Part shown: positions 1 through 45,439 of the stretch, in pieces | Layout of the letters: each line of letters opens with the position of its first letter | Position numbering within the stretch: the first letter of the stretch is position 1 | Assembly: GCA_913055635.1 (NCBI GenBank) | Contig: CAJXLK010000028.1 | Coordinates: forward strand, 1-57,126 | Direction: 5' to 3' | DNA: 57,126 bases | From: an uncultured Bacteroidota bacterium | GTDB lineage: Bacteria; Bacteroidota; Bacteroidia; Bacteroidales; UBA12077 | Position numbers and translations under genes: made by a program | The notes under the pieces: generated by a model | What the model was told of the DNA's origin: nothing | Seen by the model: the letters and a program-made list of their open reading frames with translations, nothing else | Databases searched by the model: none

Positions 1-489
1 CTGCGCCGCGTTTTTGGTGTTTTCACGGCCGCAAAGGCGGTTGTCGCTATCCACCAGTAAATAGCGGGAAGTGGTTCGTGCCCTGACAGCCAGCGTGGCC
101 AACGCCTGATGTTCCTGGTGATAGCGGTATAGCCGCCCCAGGTCCAGGTCGCTCAAAACATCCACATTATGAATGATGAAAGGCTTGCCCTGGTCGAAAA
201 ACCAGGCTGCTTTTTTTAACCCCCCGCCCGTATCCAAAAGCCTTTGATTTTCTTCGGAATAGACGATATTCATGCCGAAATGCGCATGCTTTTGCACAAA
301 AGCTTTGATTTGACCGGGGAAGTGATGCAGGTTGATCATCACCGAGCGCACCCCGTATTGCTGGAGGTGATCCAGGGTGTGTTCCAGCATGGTTTTACCA
401 GCCACCTCCACCAGTGCCTTAGGTTTTTCCCGGGTAATGGGATCGAGTCGGCTACCCACCCCCGCGGCAAAGATCATGGCTTTATCCAT
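1..489 (-). CDS. MurU-like sugar-phosphate nucleotidyltransferase, 3' part outside window
   Basis: Only the first 163 codons lie in the window; the gene runs off the left edge. The start is ATG at 489-487, 5 bp after the stop of the RapZ-C gene. The N-terminus has the nucleotidyltransferase signature: AAGVGSRLDPIT (about residues 9-20), a KPKALVEVAG lysine segment, TGGG near residue 93, and the metal-binding aspartate in HNVDV. This is the family of MurU, mannose-1-phosphate guanylyltransferase and glucose-1-phosphate thymidylyltransferase, which transfer an NMP to a sugar 1-phosphate. Family members in Pseudomonas form UDP-MurNAc from MurNAc-1-phosphate made by AmgK. An AmgK-like kinase two genes upstream in the same operon makes MurNAc-1-phosphate uridylyltransferase the best guess (inference). 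GDP-mannose-type specificity cannot be excluded from this partial sequence. Confidence 0.8.
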   Translation of the reverse strand, partial: MDKAMIFAAGVGSRLDPITREKPKALVEVAGKTMLEHTLDHLQQYGVRSVMINLHHFPGQIKAFVQKHAHFGMNIVYSEENQRLLDTGGGLKKAAWFFDQGKPFIIHNVDVLSDLDLGRLYRYHQEHQALATLAVRARTTSRYLLVDSDNRLCGRENTKNAAQ

Positions 490-494
490 AAGGG

Positions 495-899
495 CTAGTT
501 TTTAAGATCCAGGTGGGCCAGGTCTACCCCCACCTTGTAGTCTTGCTTTATCCGCTCGGCCAGGCGTTCGGCGCAATATACCGAACGGTGCTGACCGCCG
601 GTGCATCCAAAGGCCACCATCAGATGGGTGAACCCCCGCTCCATATAGGTTTCCACACTCATCCGTACCATCCGGTAAGCCAGGTCTATAAATGCTTCCA
701 TCCGGGTGTTCTTCAAAAAGAAATCCACCACTTCCCGGTCTTTCCCCGAAAGCATCATGTAGCGTTCGAATTTTCCGGGATTCAAGATGGAACGGCAATC
801 AAACACATAGCCGCCCCCGTGTCCGCTCTCGTCATAGGGGATACCCCGCTTGTAGGAGAAGCTTCTTATTTGTACGGTCAATTTAGTATTGGAATCCAT
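495..899 (-). CDS. Stand-alone RapZ C-terminal domain protein
   Basis: This 134-residue protein corresponds to the C-terminal half of RapZ (YvcJ/UPF0042) only. The Walker A P-loop ATPase half of full-length RapZ is absent. The diagnostic motif GCTGGQHRSVY is at residues 98-108, and a GYVFDCRSILNPG segment sits near residue 30. In E. coli RapZ this domain senses glucosamine-6-phosphate and presents the GlmZ sRNA to RNase E. Nothing in the sequence shows an RNA partner here. The ATG at 899 lies 17 bp inside the 3' end of the AmgK-like kinase gene, and the stop is 5 bp before the MurU-like gene, so the three are translationally linked. A role sensing or modulating amino-sugar flux within the recycling operon is inference. 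Confidence 0.85.
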   Translation of the reverse strand: MDSNTKLTVQIRSFSYKRGIPYDESGHGGGYVFDCRSILNPGKFERYMMLSGKDREVVDFFLKNTRMEAFIDLAYRMVRMSVETYMERGFTHLMVAFGCTGGQHRSVYCAERLAERIKQDYKVGVDLAHLDLKN

Positions 900-2001
900 G
901 GTCAGATATTTTCGAATGCATCAATTGATCAAGGGTTTTTTGCAGTTCGGGACACTTCTGAAGGATGGGGTTTTTGGAATACAATCCCCTCAGATTCTCC
1001 AGGGCAGGGGGGATGCTTTGGATGAAGTGCTGCTTGCCTTCTTTCAGCCCCCTCAAACCGTAAGCCCCCAGTGTTTGAAGAACCCGAAGCAGGGCCACGG
1101 GATAAAAAAATGCCCTGAATACCTGCTCATCCACCGGGGTTAATATCCGGAGGGTTTTCAGGTACTGGCCGATCATCTCCTGGCGGAAGGAGTCGGGCCA
1201 ACGGGCCCTGGCCTGGTAAAGAAAAGCAGCCAGGTCATATTGAAGCGGGCCTTTGCGGCCCCCCTGGTAATCTATAAAGTAGAGGTTGTCTTGATGAACC
1301 ATGATGTTGCGTGACTGAAAATCCCGGTACATGAAATAGGGGTGGCCCGCGCCAAGAATCATCCCGGCCAGCTTGCGGAAATCCCGCTCCAAGAGATGCT
1401 TGCGGTAGACTGCCCCCATCTGATCGGCAAATTGTTCCCTGAAATAGTTCAAATCATAGAGGATCGCCTTTTCATCGAACTGCTGATAAGGATAGCAGCG
1501 GGAAAAATCCATCTTTCTGCCCGCCATCACCTGGATGCGGGCCAACTCACGCATGACTTCCCTGACTTTTTCCCTCACTACGGGATCCCGCTCGGGATGA
1601 GGCTGATGTTGACGGATCAGGTCAAAAAGGGTTTGATCGCCCAGGTCTTCCAAAAGATAGATGTTGTCTGTGAGATCTTCGGCCAGGATGCCAGGTACCT
1701 GTATCCTTTCATTTTTGAAAAAGCGGCTCATGTATATGAATGTCTGGTTTTCCTTGTCATCAGGGTTGTATGCTCCAATGGCCGAGCGTGTATCGCCGAT
1801 TAGGCGGTAATAGATCCGGTTGGAGCCCGAACGGGGGAATGGCTGCAAACCATTGACTTCCTGGCCACTCCAGTCGAAGAATAATTGCCTCAGTGCCTGC
1901 TTGTGATCTGCCTTCAATTTTTTATCCGCTTTTTTCACAAATTTAGGAATATCTGTTAATTTTATTGCTGGCGAATTCCAATAAGATGCATCACATCCCA
2001 T
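883..2001 (-). CDS. AmgK-like amino-sugar (MurNAc/GlcNAc) kinase, phosphotransferase family
   Basis: A 372-residue aminoglycoside-phosphotransferase-fold protein. The catalytic loop reads MYRDFQSRNIMV, with Asp as base and Asn as Mg ligand, and is followed by FIDYQGG in the position of the DFG motif. The YRDFQSRN version of the loop resembles AmgK, which phosphorylates the anomeric hydroxyl of MurNAc and GlcNAc, rather than antibiotic kinases. It is the first gene of a minus-strand operon with RapZ-C and a MurU-like enzyme, which supports cell-wall sugar recycling. The start is uncertain. The longest frame begins at ATG 2001, but a TAAATTTG promoter element lies inside it at 1938-1945. GTG 1938 or TTG 1917 would remove 21-28 poorly conserved-looking residues. 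It is divergent from DPP IV with a 41-bp gap. Confidence 0.82.
   Translation of the reverse strand: MGCDASYWNSPAIKLTDIPKFVKKADKKLKADHKQALRQLFFDWSGQEVNGLQPFPRSGSNRIYYRLIGDTRSAIGAYNPDDKENQTFIYMSRFFKNERIQVPGILAEDLTDNIYLLEDLGDQTLFDLIRQHQPHPERDPVVREKVREVMRELARIQVMAGRKMDFSRCYPYQQFDEKAILYDLNYFREQFADQMGAVYRKHLLERDFRKLAGMILGAGHPYFMYRDFQSRNIMVHQDNLYFIDYQGGRKGPLQYDLAAFLYQARARWPDSFRQEMIGQYLKTLRILTPVDEQVFRAFFYPVALLRVLQTLGAYGLRGLKEGKQHFIQSIPPALENLRGLYSKNPILQKCPELQKTLDQLMHSKISDHGFQY
1938..1945 (-). promoter_or_regulatory. Possible Bacteroidota -7 element for the AmgK operon
   Basis: TAAATTTG on the minus strand matches TAnnTTTG exactly. No well-spaced -33 TTG is obvious. It lies within the longest reading frame of the kinase, so it is only meaningful if translation starts further downstream (TTG 1917). 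Confidence 0.3.
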
Positions 2002-2042: not shown

Positions 2043-4226
2043 ATGAAAACACGCATTTCATTTGCATTTCTTGTGATCTTCCTGGTATCATCCTTAATGG
2101 TCCACAGCCAGGAAGATACTCAAAAGATCACGCTTGAAGATATTTACAAGAAGCATGAATTCAGAGACAAAACAGTTAGCGGCCTTCGTTCGATGGACGA
2201 TGGCATTCATTACACCGTACTGGAGGGCAACGCGCATATCATTAAATACAGTTATGAAACCGGCAAAGAAGTGGATACGGTATTTAGTGCCGAGAGCCAT
2301 GATGCCATTTCCAGTTTCTCACGCTATGAGTTCAGCGAAGGGGAAAACAAGATCATGCTGGCCACCCGGGTGAACCCGATTTACCGGCGTTCGTTCACGG
2401 CGCGGTTTTATGTGTTCAACCGAAAAGATGAAACCCTGCAACCCGTCAGTGAGAAGGGAGCTCAGCGGCTGGCCACCTTTTCGCCCGATGGCTCCAGGGT
2501 GGGGTTTGTCCGGGATAATGATCTGTACATTAAGAATCTGGATACCGGCCGGGAGAGGCAAATCACCCATGATGGAAGGAAAAACCACATCATCAACGGC
2601 ACCACCGACTGGGTGTATGAAGAGGAGTTTGCCATAACCCAGGGATTCCGATGGTCACCGGACGGGGATAAGATTGCCTTTTATAAGTTTGATGAAAGCC
2701 GCGTGCGGGTCTTTCACATGACCATGTTCCAGGGGCGGCTTTATCCGGAGGATTATGCCTTTAAATATCCCAAGGCCGGCGAAAAGAATTCCATCGTTAA
2801 AATTTTTGTCCACAATCTCGAGGAGGATTCAACCCGGGAAATGGATACCGGGGAAGAGACCGATCAGTACCTTCCCCGCTTCAAGTGGACCCCCGACAAC
2901 AATGAGTTGTGTATGATCCGGATGAACCGGTTGCAGAATGAAATTGAGATCATGCTGGCCAATGCCACTACCGGCGAATCGAGGGTTGTTTACCAGGAAA
3001 CCAACCCTTATTACATTTCGCAGATTGGCGATGATTACCCCACTTTTGTCAATGATGGCGAACAATTCATCATTTACAGTGAAAAAAGCGGCTACAACCA
3101 CCTGTATCTTTACAATAAAAACGGCGAGCTGGCCAGCCAGATCACCTCGGGCGAATGGGATGTGACGGAGTTTATTGGATATGACCCACAACAGGAGAGG
3201 GTTTTTTATACCGCTGCCCAGGAATCGCCCCTTCGCCGGCATGTTTATTCGATCGCCAGTGATGGCACCGATAAACGCCAGATCACCCAGAATAAGGGCT
3301 GGAACAATGCCGAATTCAGCAAAGGTTATAAATACTTCATCAATTATCATTCCACGGCCAACACCCCGCCGGTGATCACCCTTCATAACCGCAGCGGCGA
3401 GTTGATCCGCACCCTGGAGGACAATGCCCGATTGGAAAAGAAAACCGAGCAGTATGGATTCACTGAAAAAGAGTTCATCAAGATCAACACCCCCTCCAGT
3501 GAATATGATCTGAATGCTTACACCATCAAGCCGCCGAATTTTGATCCCAACAAGGCGTATCCCTTGTTTATGTATTTATATGGCGGGCCGGGTTCGCAGA
3601 CGGTGACCGATCAATGGTCGAGCCGCATGGCGTGGTTCCAGATGCTGGCCCAGCGGGGCTATGTCATTGCAGTGGTGGATAACCGTGGAACCGGCGCCAG
3701 GGGCCAGCATTTCAAGAAAATGACCTACGGGAAGCTGGGCAAATACGAGACCATTGATCAGATTGAAGCGGCTCAGTATTTCGCCCAAAAACCCTATATC
3801 GATTCGAGCCGCATCGGGATCTTCGGTTGGAGCTACGGCGGATACATGTCGTCGAACTGCCTTTTCCAGGGCAATGAGACCTTTTCCATGGCCATTGCAG
3901 TGGCACCGGTTACCAACTGGCGCTATTACGATACCATCTATACCGAGCGCTTTATGGGACTTCCTCAAAACAATGGCGAAGGATATGACAGCAATTCGCC
4001 CATCAATCACGTGGACGGATTGAAGGGTGAATACCTGCTGATTCATGGTACCGGCGATGACAACGTGCATGTTCAAAATTCCATGGAACTGGCCGAGGAA
4101 CTGGTTCAGGCCAATAAACAGTTTGAGATGCAGTTTTATCCCGACAAGAACCACGGCATTTACGGGGGAAATACAACATTTCACCTTTATACGCGCATGA
4201 CCCATTTTATCATGGAAAACCTTTAA
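2043..4226 (+). CDS. Dipeptidyl peptidase IV (S9B prolyl dipeptidase)
   Basis: A 727-residue secreted serine peptidase with a signal peptide (about residues 1-22, cleaved near VHSQE). An N-terminal beta-propeller DPPIV_N domain is followed by an alpha/beta-hydrolase S9 domain. The catalytic triad is visible: Ser597 in GWSYGGY, Asp672 in GTGDDNV and His704 in KNHGIYGG. The propeller carries DWVYEEEF, the glutamate pair that anchors the substrate N-terminus in DPP IV. The length matches the family. It removes X-Pro or X-Ala dipeptides from peptides in the periplasm or at the cell surface, feeding peptide catabolism. The ATG at 2043 begins a clear signal peptide. The 3' end overlaps the convergent DUF2784 gene by 4 bp. 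Confidence 0.96.
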   Translation: MKTRISFAFLVIFLVSSLMVHSQEDTQKITLEDIYKKHEFRDKTVSGLRSMDDGIHYTVLEGNAHIIKYSYETGKEVDTVFSAESHDAISSFSRYEFSEGENKIMLATRVNPIYRRSFTARFYVFNRKDETLQPVSEKGAQRLATFSPDGSRVGFVRDNDLYIKNLDTGRERQITHDGRKNHIINGTTDWVYEEEFAITQGFRWSPDGDKIAFYKFDESRVRVFHMTMFQGRLYPEDYAFKYPKAGEKNSIVKIFVHNLEEDSTREMDTGEETDQYLPRFKWTPDNNELCMIRMNRLQNEIEIMLANATTGESRVVYQETNPYYISQIGDDYPTFVNDGEQFIIYSEKSGYNHLYLYNKNGELASQITSGEWDVTEFIGYDPQQERVFYTAAQESPLRRHVYSIASDGTDKRQITQNKGWNNAEFSKGYKYFINYHSTANTPPVITLHNRSGELIRTLEDNARLEKKTEQYGFTEKEFIKINTPSSEYDLNAYTIKPPNFDPNKAYPLFMYLYGGPGSQTVTDQWSSRMAWFQMLAQRGYVIAVVDNRGTGARGQHFKKMTYGKLGKYETIDQIEAAQYFAQKPYIDSSRIGIFGWSYGGYMSSNCLFQGNETFSMAIAVAPVTNWRYYDTIYTERFMGLPQNNGEGYDSNSPINHVDGLKGEYLLIHGTGDDNVHVQNSMELAEELVQANKQFEMQFYPDKNHGIYGGNTTFHLYTRMTHFIMENL

Positions 4227-4621: not shown

Positions 4622-5020
4622 TTATTCGCTGGCGAAATTTTTCAATAAGAGCCGGGCGGTTGATTTGTTGGTGGCCAGGGGTACCTCCCATACGTCACAG
4701 AGCCTCATCAAGGTTGCGATGTCCGGATCGTGGGGATGTTTGCCCAGGGGATCGCGGAAGAAGAAGACCATATCCAGTTCGCCTTTGGCCACCAAAGTGC
4801 CGATCTCTGCATCCCCGCCAAAGGGCCCCGAGTTATAGCGGATGATATTAGACAGGCCGGTTTCGGCTATTTTTTGACCGGTGGTCCCGGTGGCATGCAA
4901 TTGATAGTTGTTAAGGATATCGCGGTGGTCCATCACAAACTTCACCATGTCTGCTTTCTTACCATCATGGGCTATCAGGGCAATGTTCCCTCTCTTTTTG
5001 GTTTGATTGGATTGTTGCAT
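4622..5020 (-). CDS. mgsA: Methylglyoxal synthase
   Basis: This 132-residue enzyme converts dihydroxyacetone phosphate to methylglyoxal and phosphate, a bypass of lower glycolysis when phosphate is limiting. Family motifs are intact: HDGKK (residues 18-22), the phosphate-binding GTTG (45-48), SGPFGGD (64-70) with Asp70 at the position of the E. coli catalytic Asp71, FFRDPL with Asp90 (E. coli Asp91), and HPHDPD with His97 (E. coli His98). It is somewhat shorter than the E. coli enzyme, mainly at the termini. The protein is expected to be a cytosolic homohexamer. It is followed 12 bp later by a DUF2784 membrane protein. Confidence 0.95.
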   Translation of the reverse strand: MQQSNQTKKRGNIALIAHDGKKADMVKFVMDHRDILNNYQLHATGTTGQKIAETGLSNIIRYNSGPFGGDAEIGTLVAKGELDMVFFFRDPLGKHPHDPDIATLMRLCDVWEVPLATNKSTARLLLKNFASE

Positions 5021-15250: not shown

Positions 15251-15272
15251 TGACATTTAATTGAATTGCTGT

Positions 15273-18200
15273 ATGAAGAGAGCCTGGCTGCCCTTAATCA
15301 TCTTGTCTTTGTGCTTTTTCACCGGTTTTTCGGGTTCGTTGTTTTCCAGTGAGCCTCCTGATCATCGGATGGATCCGGCCTCCCTGTTGGCGATGGAATC
15401 TTCCTGGGTGGACAGTGTTTACAGACAGCTGAGCTTAAAGGAGAAGATAGGCCAGCTTTTCATGGTAGCGGCCTGGTCTGACAAGGAGCCTGCCCATTCA
15501 CATTCGATCATTCGGTTGATCCAGGAGTATCACATTGGCGGGTTAATCTTTTTCCAGGGCAATCCGAGGGATCAGGCCAAGCTGACCAATGTATACCAGA
15601 ATTATTCGCGGGTGCCTTTGATGATTGGTATGGATGCCGAGTGGGGCCCTGGGATGCGGCTGGACAGTGTGATCTCTTATCCCCGGCAAATGGCCCTTGG
15701 GGCCATCCAGGATGATTCGCTGATCTATAGGATGGGCTCTGATATTGGCCAACAGTTGAGGCGGCTGGGGGTTCACATCAATTTTGCCCCCGTGGTCGAT
15801 GTCAATAACAACCCTGACAATCCGGTGATAGGGAGCCGCTCGTTTGGTAGTGATCCGCGCCGGGTCGCTCGTAAAGGCATTGCCTATATGAATGGGCTTC
15901 AGGACGAGGGGGTGCTCTCAGTGGCCAAACATTTTCCCGGTCATGGCGACACCGATCAGGATTCCCATAAGGTGCTTCCGGTGATTCCGCACGATTCAAC
16001 CCGGCTCGACAGCATTGAACTATATCCTTTCCGGCGTTTGGTTCAGAATGGGGTAGGCGGGGTGATGGTGGCCCATTTAAATGTGCCGGCATACATGGAT
16101 GATCCCAACCAGCCTGCCACCCTTTCTTCCCGGATGATTAACGGGGTGCTGAAAGAACAGATGGATTTTAAGGGCCTGGTCTTCACCGATGCCCTGAACA
16201 TGAGAGGCATCACCAACCATTATTCACCCGGCCGGATTGAAGCACAGGCATTAAAAGCGGGCAATGATGTGCTGCTTTATCCCCAGGATGCTGCCCGGGC
16301 CATTGAATACCTTTATAAACAGGTTAAGCTCGGTGACCTCTCCCGTCAAACCATTGAACAGAGCTGTCGTAAGGTGTTGGCTTTTAAATATTGGGCCGGC
16401 CTGGATCAGTTGCCGGCTGATACCAATGGCGGGATGAAAACAGGGCCGGTAGAGAAGGCGGGGTTGACAGGGGACTTGAATAAAAGCGCCTACCAGGTTT
16501 TGAGACAGGAGTTGGTGTCAGGTTCCCTTACACTGACTGGCAATTCATCAGGTTTGCTGCCTTTTCGCAGGCCCGACACCCTGAATATAGCTACTGTGGC
16601 ACTGGGCAGTGATTCGACCACGGCCTTTCAGGATATGATCGATCGTTATGGGGCTGCCGATCATTACCATTATACCACCGGCGATGACCTGGCCCGTTTT
16701 TCGGAACAGCTTCAGGAGTATGACCTGGTGGTGGCCTCGGTGCATCGCACCAACCGGATGCCTTCCCGGCGATATGGAGTCAGGGATGAATACATCCGGG
16801 TGAGTGAGCAAATCACCCGGCAAACAAAGATGGTGCTGGTTCACTTTGGCAATCCCTATGCCCTTGGCCATTTCCCCCAATTACAGCACTATGAGGCCGC
16901 CCTGGTAGGTTACAATGACCAGCCGGTGACCCAACGGAAAGCGGCCCAGGCCTTGTTTGGTGCCATTGATCTGCAGGGTCGCCTGCCGGTGGATGTTGGA
17001 GGGCCCCTTCAGGTCGGCACAGGGGTCTCTACCGGCCGGTTGAACCGTTTAAGCTATGGCCTTCCCGGTTCGGTCGGAATGGATCCCCAGGTGCTGCAAA
17101 GGATTGATACCATCATGACCTCGGCCATCGATGCCCAGGCAACTCCCGGGGGACAGATCCTGGTGGCCCGTAAAGGCCGCGTGGTCCTGCATAAAAGCTA
17201 TGGAACCCATACCTACCTCAATGACCATCCCGTTCAGTGGCGCGATCTGTATGATTTGGCTTCGCTCACCAAGATTGTCTCTACCCTGCCGGCTTTGATG
17301 CACCTCTATGAGCAGGATTCCCTGAAACTTACTGATTCCCTTGACCAACACCTGCCCCGTTTGGATACCACCAATAAAGGTGCGCTGATCCTACACAACA
17401 TCCTCACCCATCAGGCCCGGTTGAAAAGTTGGATCCCCTTTTATTACAAGACCCTCGAGCCCCTGATGCCGGATACACCCCTGCTGGATTCCGAATTTTC
17501 TCCCGAATACCCCTATAAGCTGGGCAATCATGCCTATATGGTGAAGAATTTCCGCTACAAGGAAGGGGTCTATGCCCGCTCTCGTTCACCGCAATATCCG
17601 GTACAAGTGTCTGAGAACCTTTTTATCAAAGCGGCTTATACCGACAGCATATTTCACTGGATCGATGAATCGGAGCTTTTGGAAGAGAAGGATTATGTTT
17701 ACAGCGATCTGGGCTACTATTACTTTTACCGGATGGTGGAGCGTATGACCGCGACAGCCCTGGAGGACTATGTGCAGCAGCTTTTCTATCAACCTTTGGG
17801 GGCCAACCACATGGGGTATTTGCCCCGTTCGCGGTTTCCGCTTCAGCAAATTGTGCCTACCGAGAATGACATGGTTTTCCGGCGGGAACTGGTGCATGGG
17901 CATGTGCATGACCCTGGTACAGCTATGCTGGGAGGGGTCTGCGGACACGCCGGCATCTTTTCCAACGCCAATGATCTGGCCAAGGTGATGCAGATGTATT
18001 TGAACGGCGGTAATTATGGCGGCAGGCGTTATTTTAAGGACTCTACCATTGAACGCTTCACCCATAGCCCTTTTCGAGAAGAAAACGGCAACCGGCGCGC
18101 TTTGGGTTTTGATAAACCGGTGATGGAACCGGACCAGCCCGGCCCCACCTGTGATGGCATATCTGAAACAAGCTTTGGCCACACCGGCTTTACCGGTACC

Positions 18201-18347
18201 ATGGCATGGGCCGATCCCGAAGAACAGGTGGTCTATATCTTTCTCTCCAACCGGGTTCATCCCGACCAGGATAACCTGGAGCTGGTTACCAGCGATGTAC
18301 GCACCCGCATCCAGCAGGTGCTCTATCAATCCATTGACGCCTACTAA
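15273..18347 (+). CDS. GH3 beta-N-acetylhexosaminidase (NagZ-like) fused to a class C beta-lactamase-like domain
   Basis: A 1024-residue exported two-domain enzyme. The signal peptide (1-25) precedes a GH3 domain with the NagZ loop KHFPGHGDT (residues 219-227) carrying the catalytic His, and the nucleophile Asp306 in FTDALNM. A GH3 C-terminal domain follows. The second half is a serine hydrolase with SLTK (Ser664/Lys667), YSD (in place of YxN) and HTG. NagZ enzymes cleave GlcNAc from muropeptides; the lactamase-like half is probably an esterase, amidase or DD-peptidase acting on the same wall fragments (inference). The fusion is known in Bacteroidota. The start is ATG 15273 rather than the in-frame TTG at 15261, given the signal peptide. 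Its 3' end is 24 bp from a convergent gene. Confidence 0.93.
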   Translation: MKRAWLPLIILSLCFFTGFSGSLFSSEPPDHRMDPASLLAMESSWVDSVYRQLSLKEKIGQLFMVAAWSDKEPAHSHSIIRLIQEYHIGGLIFFQGNPRDQAKLTNVYQNYSRVPLMIGMDAEWGPGMRLDSVISYPRQMALGAIQDDSLIYRMGSDIGQQLRRLGVHINFAPVVDVNNNPDNPVIGSRSFGSDPRRVARKGIAYMNGLQDEGVLSVAKHFPGHGDTDQDSHKVLPVIPHDSTRLDSIELYPFRRLVQNGVGGVMVAHLNVPAYMDDPNQPATLSSRMINGVLKEQMDFKGLVFTDALNMRGITNHYSPGRIEAQALKAGNDVLLYPQDAARAIEYLYKQVKLGDLSRQTIEQSCRKVLAFKYWAGLDQLPADTNGGMKTGPVEKAGLTGDLNKSAYQVLRQELVSGSLTLTGNSSGLLPFRRPDTLNIATVALGSDSTTAFQDMIDRYGAADHYHYTTGDDLARFSEQLQEYDLVVASVHRTNRMPSRRYGVRDEYIRVSEQITRQTKMVLVHFGNPYALGHFPQLQHYEAALVGYNDQPVTQRKAAQALFGAIDLQGRLPVDVGGPLQVGTGVSTGRLNRLSYGLPGSVGMDPQVLQRIDTIMTSAIDAQATPGGQILVARKGRVVLHKSYGTHTYLNDHPVQWRDLYDLASLTKIVSTLPALMHLYEQDSLKLTDSLDQHLPRLDTTNKGALILHNILTHQARLKSWIPFYYKTLEPLMPDTPLLDSEFSPEYPYKLGNHAYMVKNFRYKEGVYARSRSPQYPVQVSENLFIKAAYTDSIFHWIDESELLEEKDYVYSDLGYYYFYRMVERMTATALEDYVQQLFYQPLGANHMGYLPRSRFPLQQIVPTENDMVFRRELVHGHVHDPGTAMLGGVCGHAGIFSNANDLAKVMQMYLNGGNYGGRRYFKDSTIERFTHSPFREENGNRRALGFDKPVMEPDQPGPTCDGISETSFGHTGFTGTMAWADPEEQVVYIFLSNRVHPDQDNLELVTSDVRTRIQQVLYQSIDAY

Positions 18348-43147: not shown

Positions 43148-45013
43148 TTAAAAATGAAAACCCAGCATATTCCAATGGTTTAATTGCCAAAGGCTCACGA
43201 GCAGGACCAGGGCCAGCAGGGTGCAATGGATTTTGCCGCTGAGGCCGATGGCTTTCTTTTTCCAGATCCTGTAAGTCAAATAAAGGACAATGACAGTGAG
43301 CAGACCCCCCACCAAAGGCAGGACAAACAGGCCACGCACTACCGGCGACAGCCCAAAAACGATCTGGTTCGAATCGCTCAACAATGTGCTCAGGGCAACC
43401 ACAAAAACAAGAAATACGAGGGTGGCCAGCCAGCCAAAAAATTTCACATGTCGGGGCAAATGTTTTTCCATGGGCTGATGGTATTCCCTTCGGATGAAGT
43501 AAGCCAGGGGCCAATAGATCAATGTCACGAAGAAAATGATCAGCGAGATGGCCATCAGGGTCCCATGCAGCTTCATGCTGTCAATGAAGGGAATTTTTTC
43601 AAAGGCCATGATGGATACCAGCCCATCGATCATATGGGTGATCTCGCCCTCATTGTTTTCCTTGAAGATCAGGGTATCGGAGCTATGCACTTCCCGGAAG
43701 GTATTTTCTCCCACAGGAAGATAATAGCGGGCTTCGCGGTTTTTTACCTTGAGCTTGCTGCTGTCCGCCACTGAGACTTTTGTGGGGTTGGTCAGGGCCA
43801 TGATCTTTGTAAAACGCTTATGGGGATATCGATTGGCCCTGTACTGGCCTTCATATTGTTTCAACTCTTTCATGCTTAATTCGAAATCCGGTTTGTTGAG
43901 TTTTTCCGGGTAGTAATGGTCCACCACTTCTTTCAGGACATCCAGGGTTGTACCACCGCCCTTATCGGTGTTGAAGGAAATAAAGAAGCCTGCATTTTCT
44001 TTCGGGATGAAAGCCAGCAGGGAGTGAAACCAGAAAGTATCACCGCCATGGCCGATGATGCGCTTGTTGTTCTGGCTCATGTTCATAAATCCATGCGGAA
44101 GGGGATTTACATGGGGGGCCATTTGAAATGCATTGCGCTGCATCATTGTGTGGGTTGTCGAATCCAGAATTTCATTCCCCGGTACCTGGCCTGGATTCAG
44201 ATAGGCGATCATCAGCCGGGCCATGTCACCAGCGGTGGATGAGGCAGCACCTACGGGTGCCAGGGGAATGTATTCAAAGCCTTTTTCATGGTATTCGCCA
44301 TTGGTAAATTTGTAGCCTTTGGACAGCTTCCCCTCCATGTGAGGTGGCAACGGCTGCCGGAAGGTGGTATGCGCCAGGTCCAGCTTATCGATGATATGTT
44401 CTTCCACATAATCACCAAAGGATTGGCCCGAAACCTGTTGCACGATATAAGCTGCCAGTGCGGTGGCATGGTTGGAGTAACTGGAGAATTTACCCGGTGG
44501 CCTGACCCGGGCCGGCATTTGTTCACTGAGTATCTCCTTAAGGGGTCGCAAGGCACTGCTGTCCTTTGCGAATAATCCGGTCACATATTCCTCAAAGCCC
44601 GCAGAGTGGGTCATGATGTCTCTTAATGTGACGGGCTCCGGATAAGTGGGAGGAATCTCAATATCCTCCAGGTACTGGTTGACATCGGTGTTCAAATCCA
44701 ACCGGCCCTGTTCATAAAGTTGCATGATGGCGGTCCAAACGAACAGCTTGGAGATCGATCCGATGCGAAAAAGGGTTTTTTCCCCATCAACAGGGATTTG
44801 ATTGCCGAGATCGGCGTAACCATAGCCCCTGGTGAAAAGGAGCCTTCCATCCTTTACAACAGCCAGAGTTGCTCCGGCGATGTTCTGGTCATCCATATGC
44901 GCCTGGATGATACCGTCCATAAAGGAAGAGATCTTTGCAGAGTCACGCTCAAATGCCTTGAGTGGGTGAATTAAACAGAAAACAACGATGATTAGCAGTA
45001 AAACTTTTCTCAT
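43148..45013 (-). CDS. Membrane-anchored serine hydrolase of the beta-lactamase/esterase (PF00144) family
   Basis: A 621-residue protein. The signal or anchor segment MRKVLLLIIVVFCLIHP at ATG 45013 is preferred to the frame's earlier start at 45127. The penicillin-binding-like hydrolase domain (about 25-370) has SISK (Ser-X-X-Lys), YSN and HGG motifs in order. A middle beta region (about 390-480) is followed by four or so hydrophobic helices: LMAISLIIFFVTLIYW, FFGWLATLVFLVFVVAL, LFVLPLVGGLLTVIVLYL and LLALVLLVSLWQL. The family hydrolyses esters, amides or D-peptides; the substrate is unknown. The helical tail places the active site outside the inner membrane. It appears monocistronic. Confidence 0.88.
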   Translation of the reverse strand: MRKVLLLIIVVFCLIHPLKAFERDSAKISSFMDGIIQAHMDDQNIAGATLAVVKDGRLLFTRGYGYADLGNQIPVDGEKTLFRIGSISKLFVWTAIMQLYEQGRLDLNTDVNQYLEDIEIPPTYPEPVTLRDIMTHSAGFEEYVTGLFAKDSSALRPLKEILSEQMPARVRPPGKFSSYSNHATALAAYIVQQVSGQSFGDYVEEHIIDKLDLAHTTFRQPLPPHMEGKLSKGYKFTNGEYHEKGFEYIPLAPVGAASSTAGDMARLMIAYLNPGQVPGNEILDSTTHTMMQRNAFQMAPHVNPLPHGFMNMSQNNKRIIGHGGDTFWFHSLLAFIPKENAGFFISFNTDKGGGTTLDVLKEVVDHYYPEKLNKPDFELSMKELKQYEGQYRANRYPHKRFTKIMALTNPTKVSVADSSKLKVKNREARYYLPVGENTFREVHSSDTLIFKENNEGEITHMIDGLVSIMAFEKIPFIDSMKLHGTLMAISLIIFFVTLIYWPLAYFIRREYHQPMEKHLPRHVKFFGWLATLVFLVFVVALSTLLSDSNQIVFGLSPVVRGLFVLPLVGGLLTVIVLYLTYRIWKKKAIGLSGKIHCTLLALVLLVSLWQLNHWNMLGFHF

Positions 45014-45439
45014 GGCGGAGGTTTTGGGGTTAAAAATGATTTTTTTTGAATGGTTGCAGACGAAAGATAGCTTTTTTCTCCTGAAAATCAAAAGCAGGGG
45101 AGAAATGCGGTTAACAACCTTCGCCAACCCGATTCGATAAGACGATCAATGAATGCATCGATCGTTATTGAGCTTTTGATCTTTAAACATTTTCCTTAAA
45201 TTGATGTCCACCTGATAAGGAGATCAATCATAAAACCGGTTTCCGAGACCTTGGTTTCACTTAACCCAATAAAACCCACACCCACTAATTTAAAAGGGCC
45301 AGGCGAAAGCGTACGGGTTTGATGCGGATTTGAGGCGGGTTCAATACGGGTTCGACGGTGTGATGACCCTCAACAGTATAAAGAGATTTACAGGAATTTT
45401 AATGATCAACTCTCAATACGTATTATCTAAATAAATCCT
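45014..45439. other. Divergent intergenic stretch with short G-rich repeats
   Basis: No gene. About 45318-45360 has four short direct repeats of roughly CGGGTTYGA or close variants, 11-13 bp apart. The stretch before 45440 is A+T-rich and likely holds the promoter of the plus-strand gene. Confidence 0.4.

Follow-up and report, generated by a model that had tools for sequence, protein, structure and literature searches.

AnmK yields N-acetylmuramic acid 6-phosphate (MurNAc-6-P), the sugar kinase AmgK needs free N-acetylmuramic acid (MurNAc), and Pseudomonas bridges the two with the phosphatase MupP. Recycling by AmgK and MurU is known from Pseudomonas, Caulobacter and Tannerella. AmgK and MurU are reported to convert MurNAc in Tannerella forsythia (PMC7670621). 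The discoverers of MupP described an alternation between the MurNAc-6-P etherase MurQ and AmgK-MurU in Proteobacteria, MupP itself was found through co-occurrence logic like that used below, and E. coli K-12 deleted for murQ is reported to build up MurNAc-6-P (PMC5371407). The second relevant system is the RNase adapter RapZ of E. coli (YvcJ in Bacillus), whose C-terminal domain (RapZ-C) dimerises in E. coli (PMC5737377) and binds glucosamine-6-phosphate (GlcN6P) and signals with it (PMC7073468, PMC9841335). The locus described here joins elements of both systems. It is located at positions 1-2001, minus strand, of a 57,126-nucleotide stretch of DNA from an uncultured member of the Bacteroidales (the window, meaning the whole stretch analysed), where an AmgK-like kinase, RapZ-C and a MurU-like transferase are encoded in a single compact operon. 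Based on its residues and its distribution among genomes, RapZ-C is proposed, with a probability of about 0.45, to be the MurNAc-6-P phosphatase of the salvage route, in place of MupP. The operon has the following features.

883..2001, minus strand: AmgK-like anomeric sugar kinase (aminoglycoside-phosphotransferase family), 372 amino acids (aa); Pfam APH, NCBIfam and PDB sequence comparison.
495..899, minus strand: RapZ C-terminal domain (RapZ-C) without the P-loop half, 134 aa; PF22740, match to 5o5s and predicted model.
576..608, minus strand: phosphate-binding loop GCTGGQHRSVY within RapZ-C, C-x5-R-S (Cys99, Arg105, Ser106); residue conservation and match to the E. coli pocket.
1..489, minus strand: MurU-like sugar-1-phosphate nucleotidyltransferase, of which the N-terminal 163 aa precede the window edge; NCBIfam and PDB.

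The operon resembles the described AmgK/MurU systems in that an AmgK-like kinase is near a MurU-like transferase in a genome where AnmK is present and MurQ absent. It differs in that RapZ-C stands between the two enzymes (and is fused in relatives), that both enzymes are divergent, and that no close MupP match was obtained among the four HAD proteins scanned in the window's genome. A preliminary description of this DNA had reported that the AmgK-like kinase, a RapZ-C lacking the P-loop half and the MurU-like transferase overlap or abut, and this was confirmed by coordinates and domain searches: the kinase and RapZ-C genes share 17 bp, read in two different frames, and the RapZ-C stop is 5 bp from the MurU start. 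The kinase gave 55.2 bits with Pfam APH; its top NCBIfam model was AmgK (NF045759, 66.2 bits, under the cut-off of 550), NF045698 gave 34.4 bits, likewise below its cut-off, and the closest solved sequence was 3csv. The R-D-F-Q-x-R-N and I-D-x-Q positions, which we take to have catalytic roles, were invariant across the 11 kinases compared. The top NCBIfam model for the transferase was MurU (NF045761, 107.3 bits on the partial protein, under the cut-off of 250), and PDB 4y7t and 8hhd were the nearest solved sequences. Base 1 of the window is base 1 of its contig (C28); a MurU C-terminal frame lies at the end of contig C24, and its first 25 residues repeat the last residues of the window frame, so the MurU truncation is a contig break. 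RapZ-C scored 113.8 bits with PF22740 (cut-off 27), which was found once in the whole genome, and matched the E. coli RapZ sequence 5o5s at E 2.3e-15. NF003828 matched it solely over profile positions 156-276 of 278, the C-terminal half, and the RapZ N-terminal P-loop domain (PF03668) was detected neither in the RapZ-C gene nor in the rest of the genome.

RapZ-C was searched for in 395 Bacteroidota genomes (first set) and found in 49, in frames of 476-524 codons (36 genomes) or 134-169 codons (13 genomes). Reading of the loci identified the 36 long frames as kinase-RapZ-C fusions. Nine of the 13 short frames, the window included, adjoin the kinase, and in the remaining four genomes (G306, G180, G271 and G331) the kinase is encoded elsewhere. 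The neighbourhood noted in the preliminary description is conserved, as a fusion in 36 and by adjacency in 9 of the 49 carriers. With kinase and MurU profiles (A2, A3) built from the carrier rows themselves, at least 255 bits for the kinase and at least 193 bits for MurU were obtained in 49/49 RapZ-C genomes, with one stop in the MurU frames of G216, G271 and G306; MurU was sought in 80 of the 395 genomes. By these scores the kinases make up a strongly conserved subfamily. By coordinates, MurU adjoins RapZ-C in 39 of the 49 and is elsewhere in 10. The possibility that the window RapZ-C is a fragment of a full-length RapZ was ruled out, given that the genome has no PF03668 and that no frame of RapZ length occurs among the 49.

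A scan of named genomes gave at least 592 relatives, and the 80 best of these, ranked by likeness to the query, were taken as a second set, so that its fusion rate (kinase and RapZ-C fused in 74/80, kinase adjacent in 6/80) is a biased estimate; locus L072, which is not a RapZ-C locus, was left out of the counts. MurU was located within 3 kb downstream in 53 of the 80 and fused in one, none was nearby in 24, and the contig ended too soon in two. In L121, from a Bacteroidaceae metagenome-assembled genome (MAG), kinase, RapZ-C and MurU occupy a single 780-residue frame, and the fusion together with MurU was also present in single records of the second set labelled Elusimicrobia, KSB1, Neomarinimicrobiota and Calditrichia. 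Kinase/RapZ-C/MurU was the sole neighbour cluster common to more than 10 of 119 loci, a conservation that rules out chance neighbours. No AnmK-like open reading frame that would link RapZ-C to anmK was found in the 119 loci examined, most of them about 10 kb. In two loci (L032, 3627-5441; L034, 3773-5493) RapZ-C is apart from kinase and MurU and adjoins a gene of about 425 aa, with an MFS transporter in L032.

The stand-alone RapZ-C of the preliminary description is true of the window but is an exception; fusion is the usual form, as seen in 36/49 carriers and in relatives from the same order. Five genomes of that order were sampled, and the four RapZ-C carriers among them (G230, G347, G351 and G394) all encode fused proteins. 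In the window, the kinase and RapZ-C frames are one base apart in phase and both are open across a short zone. Since the same-order carriers are fused, the split represents either a real fission with coupled translation or one indel, whether genuine or introduced during assembly, two cases that look the same here.

The predicted model of the window RapZ-C (pLDDT 93.8) superposed on 5o5s with Z 19.4 and rmsd 1.8 over 123 aligned residues, and a predicted kinase-RapZ-C fusion model had pLDDT 92.1 and pTM 0.74. The loop Cys99-Ser106 aligns with C247, T248, G249, G250, H252, R253 and S254 of E. coli RapZ, where the pocket formed by T248, G249, H252, R253 and C247 held malonate or sulfate (PMC5737377). 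Cys99, Thr100, Gly101, Gly102, His104, Arg105 and Ser106 were identical in 49/49 Bacteroidota domains, and the C-x5-R-S loop residues also in 38/38 second-set domains (the window is counted in both sets). RapZ and the window protein thus share the C-terminal fold and the phosphate loop (C247, T248, G249, H252, R253 in E. coli). They differ in that pocket residue H190 is replaced by Gly (49/49), K251 by Gln (48/49; 34/38 in the second set) and R238 by an aromatic residue (49/49), in a G-G-G segment that is invariant in 49/49 and not found in E. coli RapZ, and in the lack of the P-loop N-terminal domain from the window's genome; most relatives also have the domain fused to a sugar kinase. The C-terminal His129 is invariant in 49/49. 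The RNA motif given for the RapZ C-terminus, RxRxKNxQxRHRTxxKRK (PMC7525490), is absent from the window RapZ-C, as from YvcJ; its tail ends in DLAHLDLKN. The lack of both the N-domain and the basic RNA motif, together with the replacement of H190 and K251, makes a role distinct from GlmZ decay likely, as had been suggested at first sight of the locus, with the caveat that this motif is restricted to Enterobacteriaceae and missing from other RapZ homologues generally (PMC7073468).

Catalysis by this pocket has been raised in the RapZ literature. Khan and Görke (2020) saw a likeness between the E. coli RapZ pocket and the loop found in cysteine-dependent tyrosine phosphatases, and considered that RapZ might shed GlcN6P by hydrolysing it (PMC7199280). 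The C247S variant of E. coli RapZ is inactive, 'a specialised catalytic function' has been considered for the thiol, and a RapZ crystal with GlcN6P held what was 'likely a chemically transformed product' (PMC9841335). NTPase and phosphatase activities have been ascribed to the homologue YvcJ (PMC7525490). A different use of the domain would be that of a scaffold, in which a RapZ-C dimer joins the kinase and MurU so that intermediates are channelled, with the loop kept as a vestige or as a phosphate site of structural importance. The dimerisation of E. coli RapZ-C cited above, the triple fusion in L121 and the position of MurU beside RapZ-C in 39/49 genomes agree with such a role, but the loop residues are invariant over domains that are 47-54% identical to the window RapZ-C, and RapZ-C is away from the kinase in 4/49 genomes and MurU elsewhere in 10/49; a scaffold is considered very unlikely.

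The distribution of RapZ-C was compared with that of MurQ and AnmK in tables compiled by hand, with genomes scored as MurQ-positive when the E-value was around 1e-40 or lower, a threshold set by eye that places the intermediate genomes G086 and G365 among the positives. Profile searches detected no MurQ, AnmK or RapZ-C in family f19 (86 genomes). Outside f19, 31/309 genomes were without MurQ, and RapZ-C was present in 29 of these 31 versus 20 of the 278 with MurQ. Within family f18, RapZ-C was found in 9/10 MurQ-less versus 0/15 MurQ-positive genomes. These comparisons ignore shared ancestry. This complementarity resembles the MurQ versus AmgK-MurU alternation of Proteobacteria. Genomes outside f19 without RapZ-C were also without a strong kinase match, except G009, where kinase and MurU are side by side.

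In the window's genome (99.3% complete), AnmK is encoded on contig C23 (PF03702, 226 bits, cut-off 24; NF007144, 426.8 bits, cut-off 436), and the best match to MurQ had an E-value of 3.8e-10, far below full MurQ scores. This genome is one of 17 with AnmK and without MurQ, of which 16 have RapZ-C; the exception, G381, is also without the kinase. AnmK is absent from every one of the 85 genomes that have the kinase and no RapZ-C (84 from f19, and G009). MurQ was absent from all 13 first-set genomes with a separate RapZ-C, and AnmK was present in 12 of them. The four stronger of eight HAD_2 hits were scanned with the MupP model (cut-off 359), and the best of them scored 63.5 bits.

The assignment of the kinase/RapZ-C/MurU operon to anabolic MurNAc salvage is well supported by the fusions, the triple fusion, the conserved adjacency, the largely complementary distribution of MurQ and the occurrence of the exo-muramidase NamZ beside a related kinase-MurU pair in f19 (described below), with MurNAc as the probable substrate. 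It agrees with the preliminary description, which had called the locus an AmgK/MurU-type wall-recycling operon. For RapZ-C itself, catalysis on MurNAc-6-P would account for the intact C-x5-R-S loop and for the AnmK/MurQ pattern at least as well as sensing, regulation or scaffolding. In the proposed route, the 6-phosphate of the AnmK product MurNAc-6-P would be held in the C-x5-R-S loop and stripped by RapZ-C via Cys99, and the free MurNAc would be handed to the kinase, the usual fusion partner of RapZ-C. The AmgK-like kinase would convert MurNAc to MurNAc-1-phosphate (MurNAc-1-P), and the MurU-like enzyme would convert this to UDP-MurNAc. RapZ-C would then be a non-homologous replacement for the HAD phosphatase MupP: the proposed reaction and the phylogenetic profile are alike (with AmgK, and enriched where MurQ is absent), and the family and chemistry differ, HAD in MupP versus the cysteine loop, C-x5-R, of RapZ-C as a putative phosphatase.

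Several observations weigh against a phosphatase role and the route as drawn. Diverse RapZ homologues keep this pocket (PMC7073468), so the invariance of the loop is not special to this operon. Dual-specificity phosphatases likewise have a C-x5-R-S loop that connects a strand to a helix, but the structural likeness of RapZ-C to these is at background level: the RapZ-C model gave Z 5.5 with DUSP14 (rmsd 3.2, 87 aligned) and Z 5.2 with both 7ncy and 1zzw, and values of 5.2-5.5 tie with unrelated folds and fall below phosphofructokinase (6.3; VIA-align). Foldseek matched DUSP10 to RapZ-C only at E 2.3, and neither comparison gave structural proof of a phosphatase fold. MurQ is also present in 20/49 RapZ-C carriers. 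No AnmK match was obtained in 17/49 carriers, with a weak match in an 18th (G216); in the second set, where AnmK was sought in 50 of the 80, it was absent from 22 and represented by a fragment in one. Many of those 22 are gut MAGs of unknown completeness, but no fewer than five come from named isolates (L081, L091, L135, L137 and L150), so the absence is partly real. A strict one-to-one link between RapZ-C and AnmK was ruled out by these counts. Of the six separate RapZ-C loci in the second set, AnmK accompanied just two (L080 and L139). Moreover, the genomes that have the kinase without RapZ-C belong to two lineages only, and few independent events therefore lie behind the association.

Other enzymes may also take over parts of the route. 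BadF-family kinases (PF01869) and NamZ were searched for in 60 of the 395 genomes, and a strong BadF-family match in a frame of about 300-330 aa was found in 14 of the 18 carriers without intact AnmK. This kinase, NagK-like where scanned, might be an AnmK replacement, or a GlcNAc or MurNAc kinase; if it made MurNAc-6-P, it and a RapZ-C phosphatase would form a futile cycle. NamZ was present in 47/49 RapZ-C carriers, so free MurNAc is probably on hand there too. Within the window's genome, a 221-aa HAD phosphatase on contig C30 (L173; PpaX 105.6 bits and MupP 63.5 bits, both under cut-off) could be the main alternative MurNAc-6-P phosphatase.

These points bear on a second explanation, the one put forward in the preliminary description, in which RapZ-C would be an allosteric sensor: it would bind GlcN6P or MurNAc-6-P in the loop, leave it unconverted and adjust the kinase so that salvage follows the availability of newly made wall precursors. 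E. coli RapZ-C binds GlcN6P and signals with it, as noted above, the first committed kinase is a natural fusion site for a regulator, and RapZ-C is kept in the genomes without AnmK just counted in both sets. A sensor would not need the Cys of C-x5-R, yet this is kept in 49/49, though RapZ keeps its Cys too; and the fate of MurNAc-6-P would be unexplained in the AnmK-positive, MurQ-negative genomes, nearly all of which have RapZ-C. In view of the AnmK gaps, the NagK-like kinase, the two lineages, NamZ in the carriers and the background-level fold match, the phosphatase reading was given the probability stated at the outset, and the sensor is regarded as a doubtful but serious alternative.

A third explanation concerns the sugar, since both the kinase and the transferase score under the curated AmgK and MurU cut-offs, and far under them. 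The module might serve mainly another amino sugar (e.g. GlcNAc or a surface-glycan sugar) rather than MurNAc, and both superfamilies act on many substrates. AmgK and MurU were nonetheless the best-scoring models, the distribution is largely complementary with that of MurQ, NamZ adjoins the related kinase-MurU pair in f19, and AmgK and MurU are stated to convert MurNAc in T. forsythia; another sugar is therefore held to be unlikely.

In family f19, a distant kinase (88-148 bits with the kinase profile) was detected in 84/86 genomes, and this distance also counts against the phosphatase reading. NamZ is an exo-muramidase that releases MurNAc from peptidoglycan (Pfam domain name exo-beta-N-acetylmuramidase). 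It was present in all ten f19 genomes checked, in nine of them with the kinase within 2 kb, and gives these AnmK-less genomes a supply of MurNAc that bears no phosphate. As NamZ frees MurNAc and adjoins the f19 kinase, MurNAc is indicated as the substrate of that kinase. Domain scanning of L153 (2787-7386, genome G010) gave the gene order kinase, MurU, NamZ and sodium-solute symporter, and L155 (G048) is probably a second example of an f19 kinase-MurU-NamZ-sodium symporter operon. On its gene content, the f19 operon is a compact candidate route by which genomes that have neither RapZ-C nor AnmK nor MurQ could turn released MurNAc into UDP-MurNAc.

Already in print are the pathway, the families of both enzymes and the remark likening the RapZ pocket to a phosphatase loop. 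No paper treating RapZ and AmgK together was found in the literature searched, which did not extend to subscription papers. RapZ-C is a candidate for the MurNAc-6-P step in Bacteroidota without MurQ, and the proposal bears on the role of the essential RapZ cysteine, a question that the work on E. coli did not settle. If the proposal is true, the wall-salvage phosphatase of Bacteroidota would come from another family than the Pseudomonas one, and the original task of RapZ would have been sugar-phosphate chemistry rather than RNA control. A broader reading is offered tentatively: RapZ-C would be an enzyme family of its own, of cysteine-loop amino-sugar 6-phosphate phosphatases, with the Bacteroidota fusion enzyme, of two or three domains, acting in the series MurNAc-6-P to MurNAc-1-P to UDP-MurNAc, and with E. 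coli RapZ as a descendant whose catalytic pocket would have come to serve in sensing GlcN6P, with slow turnover, and in binding RNA.

Other genes of interest were noted in the window and in the loci compared. A 1028-aa fusion of GH3 (NagZ-like) and beta-lactamase-family domains is encoded at 15261-18347 on the plus strand, 13 kb from the operon, and is likely another peptidoglycan-recycling gene; a second beta-lactamase-family protein (PF00144, 659 aa) is encoded at 43148-45127 on the minus strand. In L158 (3707-8764, genome G031), domain scanning showed that the BadF-family kinase is NagK-like and that its neighbours are an AmpG-like transporter and a GH3/beta-lactamase fusion. Loci L157, L159-L162, L165 and L170-L172 resemble L158 by their N-terminal sequences and come, like it, from genomes that lack AnmK; the GH3/beta-lactamase fusion follows in some of them. 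Near the operon, the window encodes a divergent DPP IV-type dipeptidyl peptidase at 2043-4226 on the plus strand (PF00930, PF00326) and a methylglyoxal-synthase-like domain protein at 4622-5020 on the minus strand (PF02142, 51.8 bits).

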